Virus record (IMG/VR): IMGVR_UViG_3300020185_004102
Coordinates: 1-22,655 of that record
DNA length: 22,655 bases
From: a virus
Direction: 5' to 3' (one strand)
The notes beneath the pieces were generated by a model. The model was not told the DNA's origin. It did not search any database and was given only the letters and a program-made list of their open reading frames with translations. Made by a program: the position numbers and the translations under genes. Shown here piece after piece: positions 6,249 through 22,655 of this stretch (within the stretch, counting starts at the first letter, position 1; each line of letters opens with the position of its first letter).

Positions 6249-6250
6249 TC

Positions 6251-7384
6251 ATGAGCTATTCAAATTACGAACAAACAGTAATAGTCAATGGTCATCGGTT
6301 GCTTGGTGTTCAAAGTGTTGATGGTAGTTATGGAATAAGCGAAAAACCAATTCGCGTGGCGGGTGTTGGTTTTATTGATGCAATGTCGGATGCACCGCTA
6401 CAAGGAAATTTTAGTATCAATAGAAAAATGGTTGGGGAGGATCCGTTGTTAGAGAAAAATTCGCTCGGTAAATATCTTTTTGACGAACAGGAAATAGATG
6501 GTCTTGTGCTCTACGATAATGATACAAAAGGATTTGGTTTTACAAAAGGTCGCGTGTCAAGGTACAGTGTGAATTGTAGCGTTGGAAATGTTCCTGATAT
6601 ACAAACAGATATAACTGTTTATGGTAGTTTGGGTAAAAATGTATTGAAAAATAATTCTTATACTCAAAATTTAAATTCATCATATTATCCAACAAATTTA
6701 AGTCAAGTATATATTGGAGAAAGAGGTTCATCTTCAAATGTTGTTGATTCATGGAATGCAGGAACGTTAATAACTACAGATGAAAAATATTCGAATATTC
6801 CTGATATCACGCGAGAAAGAAGATGGACTAGTACTGTGTCTGGAATTACGTATCGTTGGCTTGAGCTTGGTAAGGATTCATTTACTTTGGTTCCGTATGG
6901 CGCGGTAATTGAACACGCAAATCAATCAATACAATATCCTGATCAATCAAGTATAAAATTTAATGTAAGTGATTTTAGTATAGATGCAGTTGTTGATTTT
7001 AGTTATAGTAGGTCAATAAATGTTGTGCCATTGTATGCATTGCAAAAAGATGGTGTTAAGACTTGGAATAGTGGTCAACCTATAACAAGCCCGAATTATG
7101 ATCCTGTGCAAATTGACACACAGTATCCAATTGAAACAGATATATCTGTGACCATGATTGCAAATACTTATGAGATTCGCGAAATAAAAGATCGATTGCA
7201 AAATGCACCAAGAAGTGAAATATCAATTGATATATGCGATGCAAATGATCACGCAAATATAATCAATAGTTTTGTGGGCAAAAATGTAAGATTGATTAGT
7301 GAAAGTATAAATAGCACAACAGAAGAAGAAATGAATATAAGTCTGTCGTACAAAAGTTACGAATCTTATCACAACGAGGTTTAA
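6251..7384 (+). CDS. Putative tail-tube-like / distal tail protein (paralogue 1)
   Basis: This is a protein of 377 residues (379 from TTG 6245), beta-strand rich, with no signal peptide or membrane segment. The N-terminal half carries an APLQGNFSI strand and an NCSVGNVPDIQTDITVYGSL strand pair that match LQGQLNISF and the IYGTI region of the next gene, so the two are probably paralogues. Residues about 145-215 are a linker or inserted segment rich in Ser, Asn and Tyr. The C-terminal half (FSIDAVVDFSYSRSINVVPL to the end) looks like a second beta domain. Position between tape measure and gpM/gpL-like genes, where lambda has none, suggests rings at the distal tube end. I recognise no specific family by sequence; the tube-like assignment is inferred from strand pattern and context. 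Confidence 0.55.
   Translation: MSYSNYEQTVIVNGHRLLGVQSVDGSYGISEKPIRVAGVGFIDAMSDAPLQGNFSINRKMVGEDPLLEKNSLGKYLFDEQEIDGLVLYDNDTKGFGFTKGRVSRYSVNCSVGNVPDIQTDITVYGSLGKNVLKNNSYTQNLNSSYYPTNLSQVYIGERGSSSNVVDSWNAGTLITTDEKYSNIPDITRERRWTSTVSGITYRWLELGKDSFTLVPYGAVIEHANQSIQYPDQSSIKFNVSDFSIDAVVDFSYSRSINVVPLYALQKDGVKTWNSGQPITSPNYDPVQIDTQYPIETDISVTMIANTYEIREIKDRLQNAPRSEISIDICDANDHANIINSFVGKNVRLISESINSTTEEEMNISLSYKSYESYHNEV
7376..7379 (+). promoter_or_regulatory. Shine-Dalgarno GAGG before the second tube-like gene
   Basis: GAGG lies 7 nt upstream of the ATG at 7387, overlapping the last codons of the preceding gene. It supports that start. Confidence 0.6.
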
Positions 7385-7386
7385 TT

Positions 7387-8307
7387 ATGGCGCGACCGTT
7401 TCTTAGATTTGAAGATGGCAAGATAACCTTGAATAACAAGGATCTTATGGTAAACTCTGCCAGCCTTTCGATTTCTCCATCTTTGCAGGTTGAGCGAGTT
7501 TATGGTGATTATGATGCGCAAATCGCGGGCGCTCGAACTGAGTTTGTTAATTTTGCTCCAACTCAAAATCTACAAGGACAATTGAATATATCATTTTACA
7601 TGTCTGCAGATACAGTTTCTCCTAATAGTGTCAATAGGTTGTTTGAATTATTAGAGGTTGCGGATCCAGGAAATGCAAAAAGCTCAATTAGTGAAGCTCC
7701 AATAAATGGAAATGTTGTGGGTAGATATAGTTTTGATAATATGTTTTTAACTAGTTTCAATCTCAAGCTTGAGCCGTTTCGCTTGATTGTTGCTAATGCA
7801 TCATACAATATATACGGTACAATAAATCGAACAGTTGATAAATATTTTACTCAATCAGATGTTGATTTCGCGCATGCACTAAAATCTTTTGGGGAAGTAA
7901 AAATAAGCAACCAAGCAACTGACGAAGAATTTGAAGTGAAAAGCTTGAGTTACAGCATCAATGTAGAACGTAAGATATCAAACAAAATAAGAGAAAATGA
8001 AAATACCGCGATTAATACATATGCTGGTGGAGCACTTCCGCATCGAGTTAGCGTGGAATCAATAACCTCTGAGGTTAATATAGAAGGTAATGAAATGGCT
8101 GAAAATTTAAATCCTTATGGCGACCAACAAACATCTTCTTCTCCATTTGGAATTGATGATTCTCTGGTGGATATATTTTTATATAGTCTTGGTGGCGAAA
8201 GAATTTCCAGATTGCATTGCGCAGGAAAAATACAGAATCAATCGATGAATATCGCAGAAGGTTCTCATGCAACAAGCTCGATCACAATAAAACAAATAAT
8301 CAAATAA
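7387..8307 (+). CDS. Putative tail-tube-like / distal tail protein (paralogue 2)
   Basis: This 306-residue, beta-rich protein starts 2 nt after the previous stop. Residues 1-145 resemble the N-terminal half of its upstream neighbour: a V/L-N strand near the start, an LQGQLNISF strand, and an ANASYNIYGTI strand. Residues about 170-306 form a second domain beginning EVKSLSYSINVERKI, with the FSYSRSINV-like strand also seen in the neighbour. This two-domain plan is compatible with tail-tube or distal-tail rings, but the family is not recognisable by eye. Its TAA overlaps the next ATG (TAATG), so translation of the two is probably coupled. Confidence 0.55.
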   Translation: MARPFLRFEDGKITLNNKDLMVNSASLSISPSLQVERVYGDYDAQIAGARTEFVNFAPTQNLQGQLNISFYMSADTVSPNSVNRLFELLEVADPGNAKSSISEAPINGNVVGRYSFDNMFLTSFNLKLEPFRLIVANASYNIYGTINRTVDKYFTQSDVDFAHALKSFGEVKISNQATDEEFEVKSLSYSINVERKISNKIRENENTAINTYAGGALPHRVSVESITSEVNIEGNEMAENLNPYGDQQTSSSPFGIDDSLVDIFLYSLGGERISRLHCAGKIQNQSMNIAEGSHATSSITIKQIIK

Positions 8308-11300
8308 TGCAAAATCTTACAAACATATCCAATTATATTGGTGATTATACTCCTGGCGTGGATTATAAAAAATTTGATTTTGTTTTTAATAAAGTAGATA
8401 GTTTATATTATTACGCGAAAGATGATATAACTTGGAGTGATGAATTGATTAATACTTTTGCGAATCGATACTCGCTCGATCCTTCTGGACCTCTATATGC
8501 TGGAGCTCAAACATATTATCTTTTTGATGCGCACAATGATATGTCTGATTATAAAATTGGACAAACCATAAACATTGGTGGGTCACTGTATGAAAATGAT
8601 GGTAATTTTAAAATATTAAACATAGAAAGTAATTACAATCCAAGTGCAATAAAGCCTGGAGATTATGTGCTTTCTGAAATATTGAATGGGGAGGAAGGTG
8701 TGAGTGATTGGTTTTTGTCTGACTGGTTTTTGTTGGATCAAAAAGATATTTATTGGCCTGGTCGAGATTTTGCTGCGTATGTTGATTCCAATATTGATTT
8801 ATATAATGCATACGAATCTAGCGACAAAACTTTAACGAAAGAAGCTTGGGGTAGACAACATTACAATACATATGGCGAAACAGAAAATAGGGCAGTTCCT
8901 TTGAATGAAAGAGGGAATTGGATATACCATACAAAAATAGGCTGGGTTTACACTTCGATTAAAGGTAATTTTACTCCTTCCGACAAGTCTCTATGGATGA
9001 ATATCGGCGGGCTTGATGATATGTGGTTTTTTGCCAAAAAAGATTGGACCGATGGAAACAATGCTGTATTGTATTACGAAGATTCAGGAAGAGAGGAGTA
9101 TAGCTATGAAATAACCAGCGAAAATAAATCATTTGATTCGGATACTCGAGAAATTGATGTTAGTGATGATGGTCAATTTTTAATTGCTAGAGACAATTCT
9201 TCAATAAAAAGGTATGCAAAGAATGGTGATACCTGGATTGAACAAGCATCTTTGGATTTTAATGGGGAATATAGATATTTGTGTTGCGACGGGGATTGCG
9301 ATACAATCGCTGTTTTATCTTATGATGACAATTACTACACTTTAAACACTCAAATGCTTCAAGAATATAAAGTGCATTATGATTATAATAGTGGACCGAG
9401 GGCTAGTATATATCTTTCTGTTGTACTTGGATTACCATGGAAAACAGAAAGCGGCCCACTAACAAATAGTCAATTAGAAAACTTTGAGTCTATCAGTAAT
9501 TTAAAATACGCCGGAGATCTTAAAATTTATAAATACAACTCTTCTGCGAACGCTTGGGAGGAATCTCACTCAATATCACAAATTGTAGAACAAAACTTGA
9601 TCGCAAATTTCAGTAAAAACGGTAATAATTTATTTGTTTTTGAACCTCACTCTCACGAATATAATCATTACAAAAATGGATTGCTCACTTGGCGTAGGCA
9701 ATGCATGAGAGTTTTGGCTTTTAGTGGATCTGTGTGGGAAGATGAATTGATTATGGCAGGCACAAATTACGGAAATTTTGTTGACAATAAGGAATATTCA
9801 TATGATGAACATGGATATTCTCAATCACTGACAATACACTTCAAGACTTTTGATAATAATACTTACGGTTCTGATGTGAATGTTTTATATTTTAATAGTC
9901 ATTTTGTTGCTGATCAGTTTTCTGAATATTCTTCTTCAAAGCAAGTTTATGGATCAGGATCTTTTTGTGCTAGAATGTCTGGAGATGGAAATAGAATATT
10001 TTATATCGACCATAATACCAATAAAATAAAATACATAACGCGCTCTAATTCTGGAAACTGGTTTGATAATATTGGAGAAGTTACTATGGGTGGTGATGTT
10101 TATGAATATGAGTTTCCTGATTTTCCGCTACCAATTAACGAAATAAATTTCAAAGCAAAGCAAACTGGTTGGGGCTCTAGTTCAAGAATGAATCTCGAGG
10201 TAAATTTCGATGGTTCTACTGTTGTTGCTTATGGGGCAAAAAAATCTAGTTATGAAAATTTGTGGAATGATTTCACTCAACAATATGAACGATTCGAAAA
10301 AGTCACAGAAAAAACACTTGTTTATGTCAATAATTCTTGGAAGGAAATAGATTTAAATATAAGAACAGAAAATGTATACAATACGGTTGTTAATGATATT
10401 CAATTAAGCAGAAGTTCCACAAGTCGCTTGCGAGCCGCAACGATTATGAGTAGAGAAATTAATCCAAAAAGACATTATGACTTACAATATATAATAGGTG
10501 GAATTTCTGATGCAAGTATACCTTTGAGTGATCTAAATTTGACTAGTGAGCGTGGGGGATTTAATAATGCTTGCTTGTCTATTTTTGAACTAAATGACAA
10601 TAACGAGTGGATTCAGATTGGCGAATTTGATAGAGAATCTAAATCTATTGATTTTGCGGTAGACGAGAATATTGATCATGTTTACAATTTAAAATTTGAT
10701 ACTTCAGTCTCTGGGCAAAATAGTTTATATAAATATACGGTCGGATATTTTAAATACTATACTCTTGATAGTGAGGATGGGTTCATTTATGTACAACCAT
10801 CATCAACAAGCGATGATCTTTTTGATTTTTATGAAGTCGACCAGCAAACATGGTTTACATTAAAAAGTGACAAAAAAATAATTCAAGCTGCAAATCAACA
10901 AGCCCAGCCTACTATAAATATAAATTTTCAACAAAATGAAGCTCCTGCACTCAATGTGGGGCAAGATTTTGGCACAAGAGTATGGTTGGTTGGCGCTTCA
11001 AATAATGATTCAATAACACAACTAGAAGATAAATCCGATAATGAAATAACATTAACTTCGGCGAATACTAATCCAGGTGTTGATTCTCCAGATTGGATAT
11101 CCGATGTTTTTTTCTTTGATGCAGATTATGGATCAAGTGTTACATTTACATGTCAAAATAAAAAATATGAATATTCAGATGGATATTATATATATCAACC
11201 AGATAGCATAAATTCATTGAGCGCCGAAATAACATTATTGTTTAAAAATAGATCAAGCAGAGAAACAAATGCCGTGCTTCATTTTGTTGAGAGTCACCTG

Positions 11301-12848
11301 GGTCAATATGATAAAGATAGGCCATCCCCAAATCTAAAATATAGTCAGGGTATTGCCGGATTTAGGTGGGGCGGAGAGTCAACATTTCATCCTTACGATT
11401 CGACAAGTATGCAGTCTAAAACATTTTATTGTTTAAGCTATGATCATTCATTAAATTTTGAAGATAGTAATGATTTAACTGTTAAGTTGAATAACTTTAA
11501 TACTTCTTTGTTGAATAAATCTGAAGAATTGTTTGTAAAGCGCGCGAATGATTATTCTGACACAAGATATTATGAAAAAAATGATGTTGTTTTTGTTAAG
11601 GAAAATCACCAGCATTACTATTATAAAAAAGAAGATTCTGGTTTTGGGGCTTATCCAATATCAAGTAAATCAAGCTCTTGGTCAAGAAGCGGTGGGTACT
11701 ATCAAGATATAAACACAGATTCATGGACTAGAGATTTCTTTTGGAAACCCTCTTTGGGGCTAAAAATTTCAAACAATCCAAGACTTAAGAAATTGAATCT
11801 TAATGGTCCTTATACTCAAATATATCGAGACGGAATAAATGAAAAACTATTAAACATAGATTTGGAATTCAATAACCGAGATGATCAAGAGGCATATGCT
11901 ATACTTCATTTTCTTGAACATCATTATGGATGCATTCCTTTTGCTTTTAATGTTCCTGTGCCTTACGAACAAGATAGAAATTTTGTTTGCCAAAAATGGA
12001 CTCACACCTACAATTTTAAAAATAATCATAGTATAAAAGCAACTTTTGAAGAATACCCTTTTAAATTAAGCGCTCAAAAATATGATTCTTTGATAACCGA
12101 GCCAATACTAAGAGAGTCTGAGCTGTCTATGCCTTCATCAATAATTTTTGAAGATAGTATTGAAGCCTTGAGAAGGTCTAACTTATTTAAAAAAAGAGTG
12201 TTTTTTAAAAATGTAGGAGATAAACCTTTAAAGATTAAATCCATGCAGATTATTGAATCAGAGTTTGATATTGTTGGTCAAGATGAAGATTCTTCTGAAG
12301 CCGTAATGTTACTAGAGAAAGATAATGATATTGATTATGTTTTGGTATTACCCCCCGGTTCTAATCTCCCTTTTGGGTTGAATAATCAAACAATTAGAAT
12401 ATATAAACAATATTCTGATGGAGTTGCAGGGGGAACTTCTTTTAGTGTTGTTCAAGAAATTAATGGTTCTTACCAAAGAGTATCAATTGATGGCTCGCCA
12501 AATAGGTTTTTCCAGAGTAATGCCGGTTATATTATGAATTTAAATACTGGGGAAATTAGTGATACATATGCAGGATTTATTGATGATTTATTGTTCAAAA
12601 ATAATAGAAATAAATATCTTTCTGGATCTTATATTTCTTTGAATGCTGGGAAGACGGGGTATATTGATATTTATTATAATGGATCTTTGCAAGAACTTGA
12701 TTTTTATGATTCTTTAACTGATGCTCAATTTATACAAGTTATACAAGCACAAAAAAGTTTCAATGGAAAACTTGAAATTGTCGTTGAAAATAGTAATGGC
12801 ACAGAACAAACTTTAAGTTCAGATATACAAATAAACCTACAAAAATAA
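8307..12848 (+). CDS. Giant gpM-like minor tail protein with propeller-like and accessory modules
   Basis: This is a 1513-residue tail-tip protein. The frame extends upstream to 8217, but ATG 8307 in TAATG is the likely start; earlier codons only re-read the previous gene. Order: a short Tyr-rich CBM-like segment (residues 10-41); a DLYNAYESS to YGETENRA module (about 166-200) like repeats in extracellular bacterial proteins; a WIYHTKIGWVY motif (about 210); a diverged beta-propeller-like stretch (about 277-690) with repeated S.DG....A and Y....W patterns; two M domains (929-1070 and 1139-1255); and an Ig-like end domain. The second M domain (RDGINEKLLNIDLEF, then ILHFLEHHYG, then FVCQKW) matches the lambda gpM family, whose prototype has only about 110 residues. 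Role inferred: tail-tip assembly around the tape measure end plus surface binding. Confidence 0.75.
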   Translation: MQNLTNISNYIGDYTPGVDYKKFDFVFNKVDSLYYYAKDDITWSDELINTFANRYSLDPSGPLYAGAQTYYLFDAHNDMSDYKIGQTINIGGSLYENDGNFKILNIESNYNPSAIKPGDYVLSEILNGEEGVSDWFLSDWFLLDQKDIYWPGRDFAAYVDSNIDLYNAYESSDKTLTKEAWGRQHYNTYGETENRAVPLNERGNWIYHTKIGWVYTSIKGNFTPSDKSLWMNIGGLDDMWFFAKKDWTDGNNAVLYYEDSGREEYSYEITSENKSFDSDTREIDVSDDGQFLIARDNSSIKRYAKNGDTWIEQASLDFNGEYRYLCCDGDCDTIAVLSYDDNYYTLNTQMLQEYKVHYDYNSGPRASIYLSVVLGLPWKTESGPLTNSQLENFESISNLKYAGDLKIYKYNSSANAWEESHSISQIVEQNLIANFSKNGNNLFVFEPHSHEYNHYKNGLLTWRRQCMRVLAFSGSVWEDELIMAGTNYGNFVDNKEYSYDEHGYSQSLTIHFKTFDNNTYGSDVNVLYFNSHFVADQFSEYSSSKQVYGSGSFCARMSGDGNRIFYIDHNTNKIKYITRSNSGNWFDNIGEVTMGGDVYEYEFPDFPLPINEINFKAKQTGWGSSSRMNLEVNFDGSTVVAYGAKKSSYENLWNDFTQQYERFEKVTEKTLVYVNNSWKEIDLNIRTENVYNTVVNDIQLSRSSTSRLRAATIMSREINPKRHYDLQYIIGGISDASIPLSDLNLTSERGGFNNACLSIFELNDNNEWIQIGEFDRESKSIDFAVDENIDHVYNLKFDTSVSGQNSLYKYTVGYFKYYTLDSEDGFIYVQPSSTSDDLFDFYEVDQQTWFTLKSDKKIIQAANQQAQPTININFQQNEAPALNVGQDFGTRVWLVGASNNDSITQLEDKSDNEITLTSANTNPGVDSPDWISDVFFFDADYGSSVTFTCQNKKYEYSDGYYIYQPDSINSLSAEITLLFKNRSSRETNAVLHFVESHLGQYDKDRPSPNLKYSQGIAGFRWGGESTFHPYDSTSMQSKTFYCLSYDHSLNFEDSNDLTVKLNNFNTSLLNKSEELFVKRANDYSDTRYYEKNDVVFVKENHQHYYYKKEDSGFGAYPISSKSSSWSRSGGYYQDINTDSWTRDFFWKPSLGLKISNNPRLKKLNLNGPYTQIYRDGINEKLLNIDLEFNNRDDQEAYAILHFLEHHYGCIPFAFNVPVPYEQDRNFVCQKWTHTYNFKNNHSIKATFEEYPFKLSAQKYDSLITEPILRESELSMPSSIIFEDSIEALRRSNLFKKRVFFKNVGDKPLKIKSMQIIESEFDIVGQDEDSSEAVMLLEKDNDIDYVLVLPPGSNLPFGLNNQTIRIYKQYSDGVAGGTSFSVVQEINGSYQRVSIDGSPNRFFQSNAGYIMNLNTGEISDTYAGFIDDLLFKNNRNKYLSGSYISLNAGKTGYIDIYYNGSLQELDFYDSLTDAQFIQVIQAQKSFNGKLEIVVENSNGTEQTLSSDIQINLQK
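9136..10370 (+). other. Diverged beta-propeller-like repeats in the gpM-like protein
   Basis: The region reads as repeated units of the form S-x-D/N-G-x-x-[IVL]-x-[AVF], later Y-x-x-x-x-x-x-W. Examples are DVSDDGQFLIARD followed by IKRYAKNGDTWIEQ, LIANFSKNGNNLFVFE followed by FSGSVWED, ARMSGDGNRIFYID followed by NSGNWFD, and EVNFDGSTVVAYGA followed by YVNNSWKEID. This is the pattern of FG-GAP/WD-like propellers that I recall from environmental phage structural proteins. The blades are strongly diverged and the blade count is uncertain. Confidence 0.5.
11091..12074 (+). repeat. Tandem duplication of the gpM-type domain with an inserted aromatic module
   Basis: Copy A (11091-11519) and copy B (11721-12074) align by eye. 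DWISDVFFFDADYG aligns with SWTRDFFWKPSLG, the strand LSAEITLLFKNRSSRE with LLNIDLEFNNRDDQE, VLHFVESHLG with ILHFLEHHYG, and TFYCLSYDHSLNF with NFVCQKWTHTYNF. Copy B keeps the family signature better; copy A carries a Gly-rich insertion after HLG. Between them (11550-11690) is a short Tyr/Trp module, YYEKNDVVF to YYYKKEDSG to SSW, of the CBM5/12-like kind. Confidence 0.7.
12147..12848 (+). other. Split Ig-like (ASH/HYDIN-type) C-terminal domain of the gpM-like protein
   Basis: The segment KRVFFKNVGDKPLKIKSM followed by a SEFDIVG strand resembles the first half of ASH/HYDIN-type Ig domains (v.F.N.G..pL.I). The matching last strands, SLNAGKTGYIDIYYNG and GKLEIVVENSNG, appear only about 110 residues later. 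The insert between (about 12360-12610) holds a Phe/Tyr-rich segment with VSIDGSPNRFF. The assignment is by pattern only. Confidence 0.4.
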
Positions 12849-13942
12849 TGTCTCAATCAGAATCAAATTTAAACAAACAATTATCTTCTTTGTTGCCCGA
12901 CACATTAATCGAGCTGTTTGAAATAGATTTTAGTACCATGCAGGAAAATTTTGAAAGATTGAAAGATATGTATGGTATTAATGTTGGGGCAGATACTGTT
13001 TATAGATTTTGTTCATCAGCAAATTCAACCAATCCAATTATATGGAAGGGTAAATCATATCAGCCTATGCCTATTATGGTAGAAGGCTTCGAAAGTAAAA
13101 ATGACGGTCGATTTCCAAGGCCAAAATTAATGATTGCTAATCCAGATGGCATATTTTCTAGAATAATATATAATAACAATGATTTTGTTGGATGTAAGGT
13201 CACGCGAAAAAGAACATATGTTCGATTCTTAGATGACGAAAATTTTCAAAACAGAAATTTAAACACAGAAGGAAAAAATCCATTTGGTAAATCTGATAGC
13301 GATTCATTTTTGCCTGATGATGTATATTATATAAATCGAAAAGTTTCTGAAGATAAAAGCTCTATCGCGTTTGAACTATCTTCCCCATTAGAGTTGAAAG
13401 ATTCTTGGTTACCTGGAAGGAGGCTGTATGCAAACATGTGCACATGGAAATATAGATGTGATATTGGTTGCGGTTATAAGGGTTTGCCAATTGAGACAGT
13501 TGACGGGCAAAATTTAACAGAAAACTTTGCATTTAATAATAATTTAGATAATTTTGGTGGCATAAACCCTTTGCAATATCCTGGTGGTATTGATGATATC
13601 CCTGAATGGTCAAAGTTTGGAAGAACTGGTCAATCTACTTCTGCTGGAGGTTATAATTTGAGCGATGTTGTGAAAATAATTCCAAGAAGTTCCAATAATC
13701 CATACAAGCGAACTGCGCAAGTTTTTGTTTGTATACAAGATCATATATCTTCTGCTGATCATCATCCATATTTTGATAAAGAGTTTTGGTTGAAAGATGA
13801 ATGTTCAAAAAATTTAAAAGCTTGTAAAAAAAGATTCGATCCAAATTCCGAGTTTGGTTCTCATAATAAATCAGAAAATATCAGCCCAGGCTTGAGGTTC
13901 GGGGCATTTCCTGGTGCGGCAGGATTTGGTTATGAGTCATAA
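12848..13942 (+). CDS. L: Minor tail protein L-like, iron-sulfur tail-tip protein
   Basis: A 364-residue homologue of lambda gpL, longer than the prototype of about 230. The N-terminal part follows the family pattern: LLPDTLIELFEIDF, then the ITWKG-like IIWKGKSYQPMPI, EGFESKNDGRFPRPKLMIAN, and KVTRKRTYVRFLD. The C-terminal part carries the cysteines that bind a 4Fe-4S cluster in lambda gpL: Cys198 and Cys208 (CTWKYRCDIGCGYKG), Cys319 and Cys326 (ECSKNLKACKKRFD). An extra Cys204 sits between the first two. The protein ends in the family-typical FGAFPGAAGF. About 110 residues separate the two cysteine pairs, and an aromatic CBM-like module fills part of this loop. The start is ATG in TAATG, without a visible Shine-Dalgarno. 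In lambda, gpL joins the tail tip with gpJ, gpI and gpK. Confidence 0.88.
   Translation: MSQSESNLNKQLSSLLPDTLIELFEIDFSTMQENFERLKDMYGINVGADTVYRFCSSANSTNPIIWKGKSYQPMPIMVEGFESKNDGRFPRPKLMIANPDGIFSRIIYNNNDFVGCKVTRKRTYVRFLDDENFQNRNLNTEGKNPFGKSDSDSFLPDDVYYINRKVSEDKSSIAFELSSPLELKDSWLPGRRLYANMCTWKYRCDIGCGYKGLPIETVDGQNLTENFAFNNNLDNFGGINPLQYPGGIDDIPEWSKFGRTGQSTSAGGYNLSDVVKIIPRSSNNPYKRTAQVFVCIQDHISSADHHPYFDKEFWLKDECSKNLKACKKRFDPNSEFGSHNKSENISPGLRFGAFPGAAGFGYES
13646..13798 (+). other. CBM-like aromatic module in the loop between gpL cysteine pairs
   Basis: Residues about 267-317 read GGYNLSDVVKI, then QVFVCIQDHISSADHHP, then FDKEFW. This is the plan of small CBM5/12-like modules (Y..GD.V, then a strand with an aromatic or Cys, then H/N...P and a terminal W). 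It lies directly before Cys319 of the iron-sulfur site. Sugar binding is inferred only. Confidence 0.45.
13921..13924 (+). promoter_or_regulatory. Shine-Dalgarno AGGA deciding the start of the JAMM gene
   Basis: AGGA lies 7 nt before ATG 13932, inside the end of the gpL-like gene. It favours 13932 over the upstream in-frame GTG at 13914. Confidence 0.6.
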
Positions 13943-14282
13943 AATAAGTGAATCCATTTTGAAACAAATCTCAAGCTTTGCGAGGCAAAATAAAAATCAA
14001 GAAATTTGTGGGATTATTGTAAATATTGATGGACAAAAAAAATTCATCGAATGTGAGAATCTTGCACACGATAAACAAAAATTTTTCGCTATAGATTGTG
14101 GGGTTTATATTGAGAATAATGTGGAGGTAGTTGTTCATTCTCATTGTCTTGGTTCGGCTAGCCCGTCGTCAACAGATTGTAGGTGCGCTAATAATCTAGA
14201 GCTTCCTTTTTTAATTTATAGTACAATTGATGATAACTTTTGTTTATATGAAAATAAAAGTGTAATAAAATTTAAGGTTTAA
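13932..14282 (+). CDS. K: gpK-like JAMM (MPN+) zinc metallopeptidase, lacking the NlpC/P60 half
   Basis: A 116-residue protein with the full JAMM motif: Glu24 (NQEICGII), then H69-x-H71-x7-S79-x2-D82 in VVHSHCLGSASPSSTD. The spacing is exactly that of active JAB1/MPN+ enzymes. Lambda gpK joins this domain to an NlpC/P60 peptidase, which is missing here; the reading frame simply ends after FKV with TAA. A frame extension to GTG 13914 exists but has no ribosome site. The gene overlaps the 3' end of the gpL-like gene by 11 nt. The role in tail tip assembly is known from lambda; the substrate is not. Cys32-type residues (Cys26, Cys49, Cys72, Cys84) are frequent for such a small protein. Confidence 0.88.
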   Translation: MSHKISESILKQISSFARQNKNQEICGIIVNIDGQKKFIECENLAHDKQKFFAIDCGVYIENNVEVVVHSHCLGSASPSSTDCRCANNLELPFLIYSTIDDNFCLYENKSVIKFKV

Positions 14283-14285
14283 GGA
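14281..14285 (+). promoter_or_regulatory. Shine-Dalgarno AAGGA before the I-J fusion gene
   Basis: AAGGA overlaps the TAA of the JAMM gene and lies only 3 nt before GTG 14289, a short spacing. No better in-frame start exists, since the first beta strand (KVYLHG) follows at once. Confidence 0.5.
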
Positions 14286-14288
14286 ATA

Positions 14289-17200
14289 GTGAATAAGGTA
14301 TATCTACATGGTGGCCTCGGCAAGAGGTTTGGTAAAACATGGCATGTTGCTGCAAACAATTCTCAAGAGGTTGTTCAGGCAATTGATGCCAATGCAGATG
14401 GTTTTGTTGGATATATTGTAAAGCAATCTCTTGAAGGAAACGAGCATTATTTACTTGCAAAAGATCCCAAGCAAATAAAAACTCAGGAGGAACTAATTGA
14501 CAACATGGTTGATCCCCAAAAATTGTCAAAAGAAATACACATTGTACCAAGCATATATGGAGGGTTTATTGCAGGCTTCCTGGGAAAATTTGTCATCGCA
14601 AAAGTGGCGGGCGCAATGTCCGCCGCAATCTGGGGGGCTGTTGCTCAATTGGCTATCAGTGCACTCATGAAAACTCCAGAAGACAAGGTGCAAACACGAG
14701 GAGAAAACGTTTCAACAAAATCATTTTTATTGGGCGCATCAAGAGAAAGTGCGAGTCAGGGAGGTTCAATACCTCTTGGGTATGGCCGCGCTTTTGTGGG
14801 TCCAAACTTGATTGGGCAATCAATGAAGACAACCAAAATAAAGAGCGATTATTTAGAATCTTCCACAGAATTAACATTCACCCACTTGATATCCGAGGGT
14901 CCAATTGAAGGTCCTGTTAATGAATATGGGAAAAATGTTGATGCATGGGAGACAGATACAAATAATCAAATCAAACCAAGTAAAGAAGTTCAGCGCGCAT
15001 TGTATATAAACGAAAATCAACTGCTGAAGGGTGAATTTTATAATTACAACCTGAATGAAGAAGATGCGCTTCCGGTTTTAAATATTGACCCAAAAGAATC
15101 TAAAATATTAAGCAATTACTCTTCGTTTATCTACACATATGGACAAGAACTTTTTGGAGCTTCTCCATACTTTTCTTCAGATAATACCGCTAGAACAACT
15201 CCTGTTCTTACGATAGAAGAGGCTTTAAAGGAGGCTACAATATTTTCCCATAAAATTTCTAATATAGACACAAGTCAAGTAATTTTAAATATAAGAGCAT
15301 CTATTTTTGAGACTGTTCAGGAGACAGGAAACAATAGAGCTGATGAAGTATTTTTCGCTGTTTTTGTTGTACAGGATAATGGTACTCGAGTGAATGTGCT
15401 TGATGCTCCTGAGTTTTGCTCGGTTAGAATGGATGCCTCTGGTGTATTAACTGATCAAGATGGTAATTTCTTGGGAGTTTCAAAAACCGGATCTAATAGT
15501 TTTAAAATTAATGGAGTTGCAACTTCTGCTTATCAATTTGAGCTGGCTATAAATTTTAAAAAAGAATTCAAATCAAAAACACCAACAATTCAAATTGTAA
15601 AATTAAGTAAAGAGCTTGATACTGCGGCGGCTTCAAATGTTTTTACTCAGTGGCAAACAACAAAAAAAAGATTATTCAGTAAAAAAGTTAATACTCACAA
15701 AAAAACTGACTGGAATAGCGTTGGTGGGCAGGGGAGAAGTAGAAGTTTAATAATTGCCAATATAGAAGAAAGAATATATGCTCAATTACTTTACCCAAAT
15801 TGTGTTACTTCGTCTATCAAGATTGATAGTTTGAACTTTTCAAATCAACCGACCTTTATGTGGCATTTAAAATTAAAAAAGGTATTGATTCCAAGTAATT
15901 ACGATCCAGTTGCAAGAAAATATTACGGGCCGTGGAATGGTCTATTCAAGGGACAAACTAGCGTGGCGGAATCAATATATTCTATACCTGACTCACAAAA
16001 GCGTTGGACAGATAATCCTGCTTGGGTGTTTTATGATCTTGTTTCTAATCCTACATATGGCTGCGGGAAATATGGCGTAGAAGAATTTGATATTGATAAA
16101 TGGCAATTGTATAAAATAGCAAAATATTGTGACGAATTGGTTGAAACGAGTTATTCAATACAAACTGCTTCTGGCTTGCCATATAGTTTTGAATATCAAG
16201 ATACTGGTAACTTGACGGCAGTTGAGGGCGAAAAGTATTTCAGTATAACGATAGATGAAAAACATTATTACAAGCAATCGGGCGGATTGATTTCACAGGA
16301 ATTGACCAACGAATCATTTCAAAAATATTATGAATTTAATAGTCCAGGAAATTATAGTTTAACTGTTCCAGAGGGGGTTAGATCGGTGACTGCTTTTGTA
16401 GTTGGCGGAGGCGGTAGCGGTGAGCGCATCGGATTTAATGCGCCTAGTATTAATTTTGCAAATAAGGACACTCTTTTATATACAAACGTCAATGGATTGA
16501 ATGGGCAAGCTTCAAGTTTAAGTTCTAGTGGTGGTTTGAATATTGTTGCTCATGGAGGATTAGGTGGAGGCAGAAATGATTATGCTAACAGTGGAAAAAA
16601 TACAATAAATGGAGCATCAAAAGTCAATTCTCAAATTCTGGGATTTGCATCAAACGGAAGAGGTGGAGCAAGTAGAATTTCAAGTAGTGATAATTTTGCT
16701 ATTGCTGGCGCCAAAGGTTCTAATTTTGGACCTAAGGGGTCTTCTAGTTTAAAACCATCATATGGAGCTGGAAGTGGAAGTGGTTCTAGGATAGTATCGT
16801 ATTTTTTCCCATTTAAAGGTGTGGTAACTACAGAAATAAAATCTGTAGATTTGCTTGGTGGGGGATCTGCCGGAGCATCTTTATGTGAAATAAATGTTGA
16901 TGCTGGTCAAGTTTTGAATATAACTGTTGGTTCTGGCGGAGCAGCACACAGTGGAGTAGGCGCTGGTGGATCTGGTAAGGTTACTATAATTTATAATATA
17001 GAAGGTTTAACTTCTCTAAGCGCTGAGGAGCAATTTATTGATATGTTTGGAGATGGAGAAAGTCATAAAGGCAAGTCTGTTGCATTTTTTATAAACAAAC
17101 ATTCGCACCAAAATAACGCCTCTAATTTTATTCAAGACATTAAAAATAAATCTGTACTGAGGGAAAATATCTCTATCGAGCGGCGACAAATAATAAGCTC

Positions 17201-19589
17201 CAATTCAAAAACACGTCAAGTAACACTGTCTGGAGAACATTTCGCAAGGCACCCATCTTCTTTTGAGTCTGACGGGAAGATAAGATTATATGGAGCTTGT
17301 GCGGCCGAAAAAGATTATCCGCTTATTGAACCAAGGTTCTCTGCGAATCTGTATCTAAGAGATTCTGTAAACTCAATAAATATTTTAAACATGTTTGGTA
17401 ATTTGTTTAGATCAAGATTGTGTTATACTTCTGGCAAAATCAGTTTGCAGCAAGATTCAAAAGTTTTACCCATTCAGTTGTTTAACAATACAAATGTATC
17501 CAGCGAAGGGTTTATGTATTCTGGTTCACAGAAAGATCAAAGATTTTCTGTTGTTAAAGTATTGTTTAATAATAAGGAAAATGAATTTCAAGATGAATAT
17601 GTTTATGAAGAGGATGCGTCGGCAATACAAAATATAGGAATTATTGAAACAGAAATAAATGCATTATCAATTTCTTCTGAATCTGAGGCAAGAAGGTTTG
17701 CTAAGTGGATATTGATGAGCGCTCAATACGAGCAGGAGGTTGTTAAATTCACAACTGGGCAAGAAGGGGCTTACGCGTTTCCAGGGGCTGTTATAGAAAT
17801 ATTTGATGAAATGAGAAGCGGAAATCTTAGATCTGGAAGAATTTTGGATATCATTGAAAATGATTCTGATAATGGTTCATATTTTGTGATTGATAAGTCT
17901 ATATTGTCAGAACCTCTTCTTGGTGATATAGAATTTACTGTATCAACTGGCGCGGATCATACAACAATTGATAAAATTGAATCGCGCGCTAAAAATGAAA
18001 AATCTACTACCGATCAAGATGTTGAAATTGATAACGTGAACTCACAACAATTGTTGAAATTTCAGGCCAGAATCATTCCCAATCAAGATGAATCTAAATC
18101 TAATGTTGTTGATATGGCTGTAAAGATGCAATTTACTATATCAGAGCATGAAAAAAAGAGTGAACAAGATGTAATTAAAAACACAAGAATAGAAAAGGTT
18201 TTTGAGGTTTTTTACCACGGATTTGAAGATGGTGATAAGGTGAGGTTCGCAAGTGATGGTATACTGCCTAAGGGTATCACTCCATTTGAAGAGTATTATA
18301 TTATTGATTCAACAAAACATTCTTTTAAGGTTTCAAAAACACAGTCTGGATCAGCTGTAAAAATTTTTGGACAAGGAAAAGATAAGTTGTTTAATGTTGG
18401 TGGTGAGCATTTTGTGATTCCAGTTGATACAGAAAAAACAAAAGAAAAAATAGATCAGGTTATGATTGGCGCAATATATTCTATTAGAGGAGATATTGGT
18501 GTGATCGAAAACAATAAACAGGATATCTCTTTAACGCAACTGCAAAATCTAGGCGTATCCAATTCGATATCTGATGATTGGATGAGTTCGAGCATTTTTG
18601 GTCAAATGAAAATTGTTGATCAAAATTGGATATATGCCAGAAATCTAGGGTGGATTTACATAGGAGACATGATCGACAAGTCGGGAACTCCAGGTGAATA
18701 TTTCTGGTTTTATACTGGAGCTTTTGGGTGGGTCGGCACAAATGAAATATTAAAAAATACAATATGGTTTATTCCGTCTGTTAAACAAAATAAAGATGGC
18801 GCCTCTGGTTTTGTTAATATAAAATACAGCGGATTTTCTGGTAACATATCAAATATGTTTGTTTATTACGATTCGGTTGATAATGTAAATCAAGATGATC
18901 AAACATTTAATCTTGGAAGTTCAAATAAAAAACTAGGTCGATTGTGTAATGTTGAATTTATTAATACAACTGGTATCTTGGGGTACATGTTGAATATTGC
19001 TGATTCGATTGAGCCTGAGGTTAATCTTGTTGCATCATCTCATTCCGAATTAATGAGTCAAGATAAATATGATGAAATTAGTATAGAAAGTTCTAGAATT
19101 GTTGATGTTGGACAAGCTTTGCAGGAAAAACAGTCTGTACAATTAAATATCATTAATAATCTTGAATTTGATTTGACGCGAAATTATAATATGTTTATTG
19201 ATGGAGTAACAGGAATAAATTCATCGTTAATAAACAAAACATGGAATTTTATATTTGTGAATGAAAATACAATTGAACTTGTTGACTCTGAAGATATTTA
19301 TACATTGAATGCTGGTTTCAATTTTGATCAAGCAAATTTTTACTTGGTTGCTGAGTTTGATAGCGATCTTAAGAAGTTCATTGAGGCAAAATATTTTAGA
19401 ATTTTAAACAATAAAGAAGTTGCTAAGGGAAATTATGAAATTACCGCGACAGAATATGCGGTTGATAAATTCGATGCTATTGATAAAAAAGGTGTAATCA
19501 GGAAACCTGTAGTTCCAATTCCACCTCAAGAAGGTATGGAGGTTCCTGATGGGCCAACAAATTTAGTATTAAAAAGTTCCACAATATAA
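14289..19589 (+). CDS. J: Fused tail assembly protein I and tip attachment protein J
   Basis: This 1766-residue protein joins two genes that are separate in lambda. Residues 1-180 are gpI-like: a ubiquitin-like start (VYLHGGLGKRFGKTW), a hydrophobic segment near 93-127, then SQGGSIPLGYGRAFVGP at about 157. Residues 190-620 follow gpJ (LISEGPIEGPV, then YPNCVTSS, YYGPWNG, WTDNPAWVFYDLVSNPTYG, IAKYCDELVE). A glycine-rich insertion occupies about 681-904. gpJ resumes at about 1012 with EPRFSANLYL, then SSESEARRFAKWIL and FTTGQEGAYAFPGAVIEIFDE. Later come two HG..DGD-V-type beta modules (about 1308-1377 and 1615-1690) and a WIYARNLGWIY motif (1446). It ends in VPDGPTNLVLKSSTI, the first strand of an FN3 domain. 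Role: binds tube end and host receptor. Confidence 0.9.
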   Translation: MNKVYLHGGLGKRFGKTWHVAANNSQEVVQAIDANADGFVGYIVKQSLEGNEHYLLAKDPKQIKTQEELIDNMVDPQKLSKEIHIVPSIYGGFIAGFLGKFVIAKVAGAMSAAIWGAVAQLAISALMKTPEDKVQTRGENVSTKSFLLGASRESASQGGSIPLGYGRAFVGPNLIGQSMKTTKIKSDYLESSTELTFTHLISEGPIEGPVNEYGKNVDAWETDTNNQIKPSKEVQRALYINENQLLKGEFYNYNLNEEDALPVLNIDPKESKILSNYSSFIYTYGQELFGASPYFSSDNTARTTPVLTIEEALKEATIFSHKISNIDTSQVILNIRASIFETVQETGNNRADEVFFAVFVVQDNGTRVNVLDAPEFCSVRMDASGVLTDQDGNFLGVSKTGSNSFKINGVATSAYQFELAINFKKEFKSKTPTIQIVKLSKELDTAAASNVFTQWQTTKKRLFSKKVNTHKKTDWNSVGGQGRSRSLIIANIEERIYAQLLYPNCVTSSIKIDSLNFSNQPTFMWHLKLKKVLIPSNYDPVARKYYGPWNGLFKGQTSVAESIYSIPDSQKRWTDNPAWVFYDLVSNPTYGCGKYGVEEFDIDKWQLYKIAKYCDELVETSYSIQTASGLPYSFEYQDTGNLTAVEGEKYFSITIDEKHYYKQSGGLISQELTNESFQKYYEFNSPGNYSLTVPEGVRSVTAFVVGGGGSGERIGFNAPSINFANKDTLLYTNVNGLNGQASSLSSSGGLNIVAHGGLGGGRNDYANSGKNTINGASKVNSQILGFASNGRGGASRISSSDNFAIAGAKGSNFGPKGSSSLKPSYGAGSGSGSRIVSYFFPFKGVVTTEIKSVDLLGGGSAGASLCEINVDAGQVLNITVGSGGAAHSGVGAGGSGKVTIIYNIEGLTSLSAEEQFIDMFGDGESHKGKSVAFFINKHSHQNNASNFIQDIKNKSVLRENISIERRQIISSNSKTRQVTLSGEHFARHPSSFESDGKIRLYGACAAEKDYPLIEPRFSANLYLRDSVNSINILNMFGNLFRSRLCYTSGKISLQQDSKVLPIQLFNNTNVSSEGFMYSGSQKDQRFSVVKVLFNNKENEFQDEYVYEEDASAIQNIGIIETEINALSISSESEARRFAKWILMSAQYEQEVVKFTTGQEGAYAFPGAVIEIFDEMRSGNLRSGRILDIIENDSDNGSYFVIDKSILSEPLLGDIEFTVSTGADHTTIDKIESRAKNEKSTTDQDVEIDNVNSQQLLKFQARIIPNQDESKSNVVDMAVKMQFTISEHEKKSEQDVIKNTRIEKVFEVFYHGFEDGDKVRFASDGILPKGITPFEEYYIIDSTKHSFKVSKTQSGSAVKIFGQGKDKLFNVGGEHFVIPVDTEKTKEKIDQVMIGAIYSIRGDIGVIENNKQDISLTQLQNLGVSNSISDDWMSSSIFGQMKIVDQNWIYARNLGWIYIGDMIDKSGTPGEYFWFYTGAFGWVGTNEILKNTIWFIPSVKQNKDGASGFVNIKYSGFSGNISNMFVYYDSVDNVNQDDQTFNLGSSNKKLGRLCNVEFINTTGILGYMLNIADSIEPEVNLVASSHSELMSQDKYDEISIESSRIVDVGQALQEKQSVQLNIINNLEFDLTRNYNMFIDGVTGINSSLINKTWNFIFVNENTIELVDSEDIYTLNAGFNFDQANFYLVAEFDSDLKKFIEAKYFRILNNKEVAKGNYEITATEYAVDKFDAIDKKGVIRKPVVPIPPQEGMEVPDGPTNLVLKSSTI
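16329..17000 (+). other. Glycine-rich receptor-binding-type insertion in gpJ
   Basis: Residues about 681-904 begin YEFNSPGNYSLTVPEGV, followed by AFVVGGGGSG, which is the common opening of glycine-rich tail adhesin domains (F..PG.Y..tVP.GV..v...vvGGGG). The body is rich in Gly, Ser and Asn (GGLGGGRND, GAGSGSGS, GGGSAGASL, GAGGSGKVTI) and closes with a VTIIY strand, also typical. It interrupts gpJ between the CDELVE segment and EPRFSANLY. It may be a variable host-range element. Confidence 0.7.
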
Positions 19590-19590
19590 T

Positions 19591-22500
19591 ATGTCTACAT
19601 CGATCACAGTTGAGTTTCAGGTAAATGACCTTGATGCAAATTATGAAGTTGTTGGTACTTCTGATAATTATTCATTTCAAGAAAAGATTGGATTAGGTTC
19701 AGATATTGTTTTTGCTGAGGGAGATGCTTTTGTTAAAGTTATTCCCTTGAGGGGAAATTATGGAATATTTGATGTACGAGTTTTTGCTGTAACGGAAATA
19801 GGGGTTCGCTCTCCATCGGTCATTGGAAGAATAGAAGTATTACCAAAAGAACTTGAAGGCACTTTTACATTTTCAGAAATTAATACAAATCAAAACCTTG
19901 AGTCGTCCGTTATTTATTCTCCAACATATGCTGGAGACAAGCTAGAGATTGATTGCGAATTTGGTGGCAAATCAATTGAGTTTAATTGGTCTTTAATTCC
20001 CCCCAATGGACATCCCCAAGAGGGAAATTCTTTATCCACAGAGTTGTTGAGTGATACTTTTTTGTCTGGTTTTAAAATAAATTTGTTTAATGACGGTCAA
20101 ATCATTGATCTCGAGCAAGCGAGTTATTCAGAAACTTCTCTCGCAGCTTTATCTTCGACCCTTCAGACAGAAAAAGAAAATGTCCAGGATATATTTAATA
20201 ATTATAGAGACTTTTCTTTAAGATTGAACGAGGCAGTTTTTAATGATTTGAATTTATCGAGAGATATTTCTTTGCAGATTATTTCTGTAGATAGATTTGG
20301 TGGAGAATCTACAGGCATCGCAAATGCTACAAATTTAGAACCAGTCATAAGTAACCTGAATTATTCAACCAAGGGTTCTGACACAAGTTTTTCATGGGAG
20401 TCTACAGATGCAGATTTTAAAGATGTTAAAATTGAGGTTTTGGCTATACCCGAGGGAACTTCTTTAATTCAAGAAGAAGACCTTCAGGCTAGCGCAAGTT
20501 ATTTTCAAGCTTTAAAACAAGCGAAACCATACAATGATTTCGCAGGTGCATATTATACCGCCGGGGATAAAGTCGTTTATAATGGAAAAATATACGAAGC
20601 AATTCAAACTCATACGCGAGGAAACAATGAATATCCAGATGATGATTTTGAAATCGATGAGCAGACCGGAGAGGTGATTGAGGGCGTTGCAAATTGGGCA
20701 TTAATTGGTGACGCTATAAATTTCTTGTATTTCTCAAGTAATGACCCTGATGATGATTTGGGGTTAAAAAATATAAACGAAGATGATACATTAAAAAATG
20801 TTGAAATATCAGATGATTTAAAAACTTTTAGTGCTACACAATTGTGGGGATATAAATATTATTACACTTTTCAGCCTTATGATGAATTTGGTGAGGGTAA
20901 AGTATACAACCTGACAAAAAAAGGATTGATTGATAAAAATGCAGATGATTCAATATTAGAACCAATATTGGTAAATGTAAAAATTGATAATTTAAGATTC
21001 CGCGAAGTTAAAGACGATCTGGTCTTCAATTGGGATGCAACTGATCAAGACGGAAACCTAGTAGACTTGAATCAATATAAATTTTTGTTTGGCGGGCAAG
21101 ACTTTCCTTCTCTTCTTGGTATAAGCGGTTCACTGTATGATGTTCATACAAATCAAAAAATAACAGGAATAACAAATGGATTTAATTCCAAAAGTTTGGA
21201 TTTTGATGAAGATGGAGATCTTGTTGTTAATTCAAATCTTCCAAGTGCAAAGGTGTTTGATCAATACAAATATACGCGCGAATTAAATAATAGCATATAT
21301 AAGACTGGCGGATTTCCTTCTGATTTCGGAGACTATGATACATCAACAAATTATGTTTCTGGTGATAATGTATTAAGTGATAATAAAATTTATACTGCAA
21401 ATACACAAAACAATGAACAGTCTCCAAATGTTCAGCCATATTATTCTGGCTGGTCTTCATCTCAAACATATTACGCTTCCTCCTCTGACGCATTTAATTA
21501 TAGAAATAATATATATAAAACAATAAACGACTTTGGTCCAAATTCATCTAATATATCAGGGTTGTTTAATGAGGGCTTGGTTTATAATGTTGGGGATATT
21601 GTATTGTCTCCAGAAAGTGATGTTTCTGTGTTTAGCGAAAGTGATTCGTACGTTCCTGGAGATTTTGTTTTTTATAATGGTTCAATATATGAATGTCTGC
21701 AAACAATCGCAACCGAAGAAAATGCGTTTCCTGATAATGCTGATTTTTGGTCGCGCTTAGATATATTTAATGATCTTACATGCGCTTATTTTCAATCAAC
21801 TGCAAATAGTAATTCTAGTTACCCTTTTGATGTTTCAAGCAATTGGAGCAAAGTAAATCCAGCTTCTTTAGCTGCAAATGGGCAATTTTTTGAATTTTTG
21901 ATACCAGCTTATGAGTTGCCTGTTTCAGATTGGAGCTCGCAGGATTCATATAATGCAGGAAACTTTGTTGTTTATGAAAATGATATATGGAGCGGTACTC
22001 AATTTAGCCAAAATCAAATTCCATCTGAGGGTTCAAATTACTGGAGTAATCAATCGAATTCTCAGGATATAGGATTATATTCAACATATTATTCAAGAAA
22101 TTATCAATCTGGTGATTTGGTTTATAGTAATAACTTTGTATATAAATGCACAAGAGATGACCCTGCTGGCGGCCCAATAACAGCCATAACAAATGAAGGA
22201 CAATCAATTTTATCAAGCTACGAGCAAACAAATTGGTTGCCATATTGGGAACTGAATGATCAATATGATAACATTGTATTTAAGCATGTTGGCATTCCTC
22301 AAAGTGGAAAAAGGAGTGTTGGTATAGAGTTGGGTATTGTTGATAAAAACGGAAGAATAATAAATCAAGCAAATCTTCTTGCTGACAATCCGCCGCCATA
22401 TATATTGACCGAAGGATTTGATGTTGATAGCACGGGCGAAGCAACAAAAGTAAAATTTAATTTCAATTACGCATTAGGATTTCAAGAAAAAACAACAAAA

Positions 22501-22655
22501 GTATATTTGTATAGATCTGAAAGCCCTGATTTTGATGTTGTTGATGAATACGGATTTCCTTTGACCGGAGAAAATACTCCGTTTGTAAAAAGTGTTGTTG
22601 GCGCAGGGGATGCAACATTTGGACAAAACATTACACAAATAATTGACGAGCCTCC
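19591..22655 (+). CDS. FN3-like adhesin with multiple CBM-like modules, 3' end outside window
   Basis: The frame is open from ATG 19591 through the right edge for 1021 codons. Start: ATG follows the gpJ stop after one base (TAA-T-ATG), with no Shine-Dalgarno. Residues 1-85 read as the rest of an FN3 domain whose first strand ends gpJ. Further FN3-like segments begin near 250 (PVISNLNYSTKGSDTSFSWE) and near 453 (VNVKIDNLRFREVKDDLVF), each ending in strands such as YYYTFQPYDEFGEG and RSVGIELGIVDKNGR. CBM5/12-like modules (Y..GD.V.Y...Y....P...W) lie in their loops at about 317-374, 581-621, 622-661, 682-723, 781-820 and 830-886. No signal peptide or membrane segment. Position after J and composition suggest a host-contact tip protein; a role as central tail fibre extension is inferred. 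Confidence 0.8.
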   Translation, partial: MSTSITVEFQVNDLDANYEVVGTSDNYSFQEKIGLGSDIVFAEGDAFVKVIPLRGNYGIFDVRVFAVTEIGVRSPSVIGRIEVLPKELEGTFTFSEINTNQNLESSVIYSPTYAGDKLEIDCEFGGKSIEFNWSLIPPNGHPQEGNSLSTELLSDTFLSGFKINLFNDGQIIDLEQASYSETSLAALSSTLQTEKENVQDIFNNYRDFSLRLNEAVFNDLNLSRDISLQIISVDRFGGESTGIANATNLEPVISNLNYSTKGSDTSFSWESTDADFKDVKIEVLAIPEGTSLIQEEDLQASASYFQALKQAKPYNDFAGAYYTAGDKVVYNGKIYEAIQTHTRGNNEYPDDDFEIDEQTGEVIEGVANWALIGDAINFLYFSSNDPDDDLGLKNINEDDTLKNVEISDDLKTFSATQLWGYKYYYTFQPYDEFGEGKVYNLTKKGLIDKNADDSILEPILVNVKIDNLRFREVKDDLVFNWDATDQDGNLVDLNQYKFLFGGQDFPSLLGISGSLYDVHTNQKITGITNGFNSKSLDFDEDGDLVVNSNLPSAKVFDQYKYTRELNNSIYKTGGFPSDFGDYDTSTNYVSGDNVLSDNKIYTANTQNNEQSPNVQPYYSGWSSSQTYYASSSDAFNYRNNIYKTINDFGPNSSNISGLFNEGLVYNVGDIVLSPESDVSVFSESDSYVPGDFVFYNGSIYECLQTIATEENAFPDNADFWSRLDIFNDLTCAYFQSTANSNSSYPFDVSSNWSKVNPASLAANGQFFEFLIPAYELPVSDWSSQDSYNAGNFVVYENDIWSGTQFSQNQIPSEGSNYWSNQSNSQDIGLYSTYYSRNYQSGDLVYSNNFVYKCTRDDPAGGPITAITNEGQSILSSYEQTNWLPYWELNDQYDNIVFKHVGIPQSGKRSVGIELGIVDKNGRIINQANLLADNPPPYILTEGFDVDSTGEATKVKFNFNYALGFQEKTTKVYLYRSESPDFDVVDEYGFPLTGENTPFVKSVVGAGDATFGQNITQIIDEP
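20539..22248 (+). repeat. Array of CBM5/12-like aromatic modules in the adhesin
   Basis: At least five, perhaps seven, diverged copies are visible: YYTAGDKVVYNGKIYEA to NWALIG (20539-20712); NYVSGDNVLSDNKIYTA to YSGW (21331-21453); SDAFNYRNNIYKT (21454-21573); SYVPGDFVFYNGSIYECL to DFWSRL (21634-21759); a half copy SSYPFDVSSNWSKV (21820-21852); SYNAGNFVVYENDIW to NYWSNQ (21931-22053); NYQSGDLVYSNNFVYKC to YWEL (22078-22251). The consensus Y..GD.V.[YF]...[IV]Y....P...W is that of small chitin-binding-type modules. Copies are too diverged to be recent DNA duplicates. Confidence 0.6.

Follow-up and report, generated by a model that had tools for sequence, protein, structure and literature searches.

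Recurring add-on modules in otherwise dissimilar tail tip proteins of an uncultured siphophage clade

Introduction

Are the short elements that recur across the tail tip genes of a virus ancestral parts of those genes, or are they modules that come and go? The question is raised by IMG/VR record IMGVR_UViG_3300020185_004102, whose complete sequence of 22,655 bases was analysed here (the window). Its plus strand carries, in this order, genes for a tape measure protein, two proteins termed U1 and U2, homologues of gpM, gpL and gpK, a gpI-gpJ fusion and an adhesin-like protein; the succession of gpM, gpL, gpK and gpI/gpJ homologues 3' of the tape measure identifies a lambda-type tail tip. The original prediction held that one module vocabulary is shared by the tip genes from position 8307 onwards and has spread between adjacent genes. 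We found the same modules at several places in proteins with no other resemblance, and their gain or loss between close relatives is in frame. It is likely, in our judgement, that this clade of uncultured siphophages has a conserved lambda-type tip core decorated at a few docking sites from a common pool of add-ons.

Results

The comparison set grew from 42 loci in a first scan to 88, including the window, in an alignment-based scan, and the gene order was identical among the 88 as far as the contigs reach; because many of these loci are near-duplicates, locus counts do not equal independent events. All-against-all blastp of 437 nonredundant tip open reading frames (ORFs) from the 88 loci (e<=1e-3) yielded 377 high-scoring segment pairs between different gene classes against 4 with reversed subjects, in agreement with the predicted sharing. 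Five module profiles were searched in 795 ORFs of the 88 loci at a threshold of 1e-3 (the module names DLHY, W-repeat, YLT and SGSN were coined in this analysis). DLHY, about 45 residues long with the consensus DYexYVdxxxDL...tKexWGxxHWxxxGxxExR, was found in gpM of 22 loci, gpL of 14, gpI-gpJ of 5, the adhesin of 2 and U2 of 1; the W-repeat in gpI-gpJ of 58, gpM of 25 and U1 of 4; YLT in U1 of 20, gpM of 10 and gpI-gpJ of 3; and SGSN in gpI-gpJ of 4 and in gpM and the adhesin of one locus each. At this threshold, the tape measure, gpK and 194 unlabelled ORFs gave no module match. Profiles made from the copies of a single gene recovered the other genes, while reversed sequences gave no match at 1e-3; a W-repeat profile built from gpJ only found gpM (16 matches, best 7e-6) and U1 (4 matches), indicating that the predicted likeness between the W-rich stretches of gpM and gpJ is real. 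With U1, U2 and the adhesin taken as virion proteins on the basis of synteny, one module family sits on several different virion proteins, as in the shuffled decoration of 936 phages. The vocabulary also begins further upstream than predicted, YLT being present in U1 (a label carried by 68 ORFs across the 88 loci), and it includes a DLHY module nested in the gpM W-repeat that the prediction had missed. Mutual paralogy of U1, U2, gpL and gpM was rejected, no profile match being obtained among them.

Whole modules were present or absent in frame between proteins that are 81-86% identical. DLHY occurs in the gpI-gpJ protein of locus L033 and not of L032 (86% identical; flanks 97 and 90%), YLT and SGSN occur in gpM of L062 and not of L063 (86%), and DLHY occurs in U2 of L062 and not of L065 (81%). 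YLT at one point of U1 is present or absent in many pairs (insertion at core position 132, missing in relatives of about 293 residues), and the gpM W-repeat is likewise an insertion, missing from short gpM relatives. As judged from the alignments, this clean in-frame presence and absence shows recent gain or loss of modules at preferred sites; L063 may have lost YLT, because a similar copy of the L062 YLT is found in L059. The gpM docking site lies at core positions 119-139, after the motif YKILNIE, and is empty in 13 of 22 rows; it holds DLHY nested in the W-repeat in the window, L007, L036 and L043, YLT together with the W-repeat in L070 and L086, and the W-repeat without a nested module in L062, L072 and L084. 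The U1 site (core 132-140) takes YLT or YLT plus W-repeat, and further sites lie at about position 333 of gpL and at 396, 729-742, 1093-1101, 1321 and 1416 of gpJ. DLHY alone was found at about 11 different places across five gene classes. The gpM of L037 (gene at 4858-9993) carries an M10 metalloprotease domain (E=3.9e-13), inserted into the linker that joins its two gpM domains. Of the marks of a transposon-like mobile element, neither target-site duplications nor terminal inverted repeats were seen by eye in four DNA junction alignments.

Whether the modules follow the genome or the gene was assessed by comparing pairs of copies from different genes, within one genome or between genomes, using 2000 permutations. 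For DLHY the same-genome value was 0.344 against 0.240 for other genomes, a difference that only 2 of 2000 permutations reached in one run and 1 of 2000 in another; without L078, a genome in which three genes together carry four similar DLHY copies, 631 of 2000 permutations reached the observed value. No same-genome signal was obtained for the W-repeat (988 of 2000, a result that includes the window's own W-repeat pair), YLT (1365) or SGSN (659). Therefore, intragenomic spread is indicated through one genome, L078, and the expectation that module phylogeny follows the genome held for DLHY by way of L078 and was not borne out for the W-repeat. None of 200 bootstrap trees united the gpM or the gpL copies of DLHY, or the U1 or the gpM copies of YLT. 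Because few branches of the module trees were supported and labels were partly clustered by gene, our argument rests on presence, absence and insertion sites.

Beyond the clade, DLHY, W-repeat and YLT gave no match at E<=0.1 when used as single-sequence tblastn queries against 50,697 phage records. Their profiles likewise had no match among 7700 ORFs from the 80 genome loci of a host scan, in which CBM5/12 (16 matches) and SGSN (9 matches) do occur. None of the 80 is close to the clade; the nearest, L094, is a contig in a Halobacteriovorax metagenome-assembled genome that has a duplicated gpM, a gpL alignable almost from end to end and a gpJ that ends with CBM5/12, and that could be a mis-binned phage. 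These results bear on the possibility that the modules entered each gene independently from hosts or other phages, out of a common environmental pool and without passing from one tip gene to another inside a genome. Such entry would agree with the permutation results for the W-repeat, YLT and SGSN, with the disappearance of the DLHY signal once L078 is left out, and with the CBM5/12 and SGSN matches in genome loci, but the similar DLHY copies of L078 speak against it; moreover, the outside pool is not in sight, since DLHY, W-repeat and YLT were found neither in the phage records nor in the genome-locus ORFs. We regard it as a real possibility, short of probable.

The gene described in the prediction as gpJ-like does contain a gpJ part but is a gpI-gpJ fusion (phrog_32 and phrog_31). 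The gpJ family profile matched HK630 gpJ at residues 16-501 (E=7e-39) and, weakly, at 565-601 (E=0.0046), and the parts so matched flank the HG..DGD-V module (HG module) and the W-repeat. By alignment, these modules are placed at about residues 502-564 of lambda gpJ, within the HDIV insertion region described for that protein (PMC10721106). Several HG modules had been predicted in gpJ; we found one, at residues 1307-1378, and gpI-gpJ was the only gene class that the HG profile matched. In a model of the gpJ C-terminus (predicted local distance difference test, pLDDT, 75.0), the beta strands of the W-repeat are lined up and paired like hairpins, and the HG module forms a small beta domain. This domain aligned with the endosialidase beta-barrel over about 70 residues with a root-mean-square deviation of 2.6-3.0 and Z of 5.6-6.4, middling values given that Z under 8 may mean a common arrangement only. 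In the K1F tailspike this barrel binds sialic acid (PMC12632334); identity of the HG module with it is 16-19%, and no catalytic propeller was identified here. A Foldseek search of the PDB with the whole gpJ model gave no match at E<=0.001, and a second structural comparison barely covered the W-repeat.

A search for homologues of known function of DLHY and YLT found none, as might be expected if the modules were structural spacers or assembly elements rather than binding devices, and lambda gpM and gpL are indeed ring-forming proteins (PMC10721106). However, the modules stand at optional sites and are missing in many relatives, CBM5/12 is a family of binding modules, and the modelled HG module resembles a binding domain; we therefore consider the spacer explanation unlikely.

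Carbohydrate-binding modules (CBMs) of family 5/12 were confirmed in the adhesin, as predicted: PF02839 matched with E=4.2e-20 and 71.9 bits against a curated cut-off of 26.2, and a profile built in this study detected five copies at independent E-values (iE) <=7e-9. The adhesin CBM profile aligned best with gpM at 328-372 (score 24.2; 40 column-shuffled controls, mean 12.7, maximum 17.3), with a second-best place at 24-55 (E=0.011), and with gpL at columns 270-320 (score 26.6; 40 controls, mean 12.0, maximum 17.1). The predicted CBM5/12-like stretches of gpM and gpL thus stand above all shuffled controls as profile-profile relatives, but Pfam does not report them at E<=5 and they stay below the curated cut-off of PF02839. 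The N-terminal stretch of gpM is kept in 13/13 alignment rows, its interdomain link in 7/7 rows shown, the gpL insert in 26/26 nonredundant rows, and the HG module and W-repeat both in 57/57 gpJ proteins of at least 1400 residues. The gpL insert was not seen in gpL of HK630 or of the other cultured phages compared (gpL of Psymv2 is split over two frames); it may be older than the clade, because almost the whole of the distant L094 gpL can be aligned (31%). An alternative, which the prediction had itself named as a refuting case, is that the modules are ancestral to each gene and resemble one another through old common descent or convergence. It holds for the HG module, the W-repeat of gpJ and the CBM5/12-like parts of gpL and gpM, all of which occur in every relative reaching there, and it agrees with the W-repeat similarity that tracks gene and not genome. 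For the gpM W-repeat, DLHY, YLT and SGSN it is contradicted by their presence and absence among relatives at many sites, and as a general account it is improbable. The predicted spread between tip genes accordingly stands, as sharing with insertion or loss, for these four modules and not for the fixed ones.

Instead of the single-domain gpM of lambda-type tips, the clade has two tandem gpM domains, and the halves of the gpM family alignment match each other (E=9.7e-16 over 109 columns). Given this match and the presence of 30 gpM chains over five entries of lambda structures, six in each, three duplicated gpM proteins could replace six, as a putative trimer or pseudo-hexamer.

Discussion

On the reading that a conserved core is decorated from a common pool, each tip protein would keep its core and receive as add-ons the W-repeat, DLHY, YLT, SGSN and, once, a metalloprotease. 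Ordinary recombination, homologous or illegitimate, between tip genes and between co-infecting relatives would bring the modules to their sites, where they would serve around the conserved hub as accessory devices for multivalent binding to surfaces, probably to glycans. The CBM5/12-like and HG modules would be equipment of this kind that is older and fixed. Because the Z values of the HG-endosialidase comparison are middling, surface or glycan (receptor) binding by the modules is a role that we infer. More tentatively, and as less likely than not, we propose that conserved docking sites of six proteins take clade-specific cassettes alone, in tandem or nested, and that copies also move from one tip gene to another within a genome, L078 being the example; the whole tip could then be re-dressed with the hub core untouched.

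Several points weigh against decoration from a common pool. The direction, gain or loss, is not proven case by case, no recombination footprint was found at the module junctions, and intragenomic copying is seen through L078 alone. The module trees are short and poorly resolved, with the gene clustering noted above, and the endosialidase match of the HG module has a middling Z. The AlphaFold model of the gpM N-terminus was poor (pLDDT 48.7) and was discarded, which leaves DLHY without a known fold.

That modules are shuffled on virions is already known, and the statement in the prediction that such a system has no name was too strong. In the lactococcal 936 siphophages, CBM decorations occur on Dit, MTP/TpeX and NPS, an 'evolved Dit' is also known, and common structural bricks and shuffling are the terms in which these are described (PMC6669499). 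As here, more than one virion protein bears related binding modules; theirs, as described in that source, are BppA-like CBMs of phages of Gram-positive hosts, whereas in this clade the tip is lambda-type, the module families are others, and nested insertions and six tip genes are involved. Domain mosaicism, the ongoing sharing of fragments between otherwise unrelated phage proteins, strong in receptor-binding and tail proteins (PMC10684548), is a similar phenomenon surveyed over all phage proteins, whereas our data concern one clade, defined sites and insertions among near relatives in gpM, gpL, gpJ, U1 and U2. The lambda tail tip (PDB 8iyk, 8k35) has homologous core proteins, and its gpJ also bears insertions, an FNIII domain and HDIV (PMC10721106); unlike in lambda, gpM is tandem-duplicated here, gpL has a CBM-like insert, and gpJ, joined to gpI in one protein, stops shortly beyond its match to lambda 565-601. 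No paper in a partial literature collection was recognised as describing these module families. What is new is the set of module families, their setting in a lambda-type tip, their range across six genes and the docking sites. The data suggest that the conserved ring and hub proteins gpM and gpL of lambda-type tips are platforms for exchangeable domains, and the docking sites and the DLHY, W-repeat and YLT families can be used for annotating uncultured viruses and tested for host binding.

Features of the locus

Table 1. Genes and modules of the window, by position
Feature	Position	Strand	Basis or remark
Tape measure	15-6248	+	
U1, conserved, between tape measure and gpM	6251-7384	+	without PHROG family; carries YLT insert
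YLT module in U1	6689-6883	+	hidden Markov model match, residues 149-213
U2	7387-8307	+	
gpM-like distal tail protein, 1514 residues, two tandem gpM domains	8304-12848	+	PF05939 E=1.3e-20, two stretches
CBM5/12-like N-terminal element of gpM, kept in relatives	8331-8426	+	gpM family alignment and profile comparison
First W element (SDWFLSDWFL) of gpM W-repeat	8703-8747	+	overlaps sole tandem-repeat match
DLHY nested in gpM W-repeat	8766-8900	+	iE 5.9e-29, profile including this copy
Remaining gpM W-repeat (WIYHTKIGWVY...)	8916-9047	+	WREP profile, long-ORF residues 232-278, iE 2e-5
Lineage-specific gpM insert, about 647 residues	9048-10988	+	absent in short relatives
First gpM domain	11100-11525	+	family alignment
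CBM5/12-like link joining the gpM domains, conserved	11547-11750	+	profile alignment
Second gpM domain	11736-12053	+	PF05939, residues 1145-1250
gpL-like hub protein	12848-13942	+	PF05100 E=1.7e-43; lambda gpL structure 8iyk_L E=3.8e-23
CBM5/12-like gpL insert, between two cysteine pairs of iron-sulphur domain	13646-13810	+	alignment and profile
gpK-like protein, JAB domain only	13914-14282	+	
gpI-gpJ fusion	14289-19589	+	phrog_32 (residues 1-184), phrog_31
Glycine-rich gpJ insert, core site 618	16326-16997	+	alignment, sequence
HG..DGD-V module of gpJ	18207-18404	+	profile
gpJ W-repeat (WIYARNLGWIY...)	18573-18776	+	profile; predicted beta-hairpins
Adhesin-like gene, runs off contig	19591-22653	+	PF02839
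Five adhesin CBM5/12 modules	20545-20646, 21334-21459, 21631-21753, 21931-22050, 22093-22245	+	

A Pfam search with the long lineage-specific insert of gpM gave no match; by eye, the insert has recurring S.DG and W-containing strands and looks propeller-like. The protease inserted in gpM of L037 is of matrixin type, with the motif HELGHVFGLTH. A gpM-like protein of 2549 residues (L077:2355-10001) gave weak matches, far below cut-offs, to models of internalin K and clumping factor B. The glycine-rich gpJ insert resembles the glycine-rich domains of tail fibres, and relatives carry inserts of other lengths at the same core site. The adhesin was considered as a split-off C-terminal half of gpJ and rejected as such, its N-terminal profile matching HK630 gpJ with a best E=0.29. 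The NlpC/P60 part, a component of lambda gpK, is missing from the gpK-like protein of the window, in which JAB is the sole domain. In the tape measure, a short motif recurs several times, as GHIPNYA, GYIPNYA, GHIPNFA and GFVPNYA.

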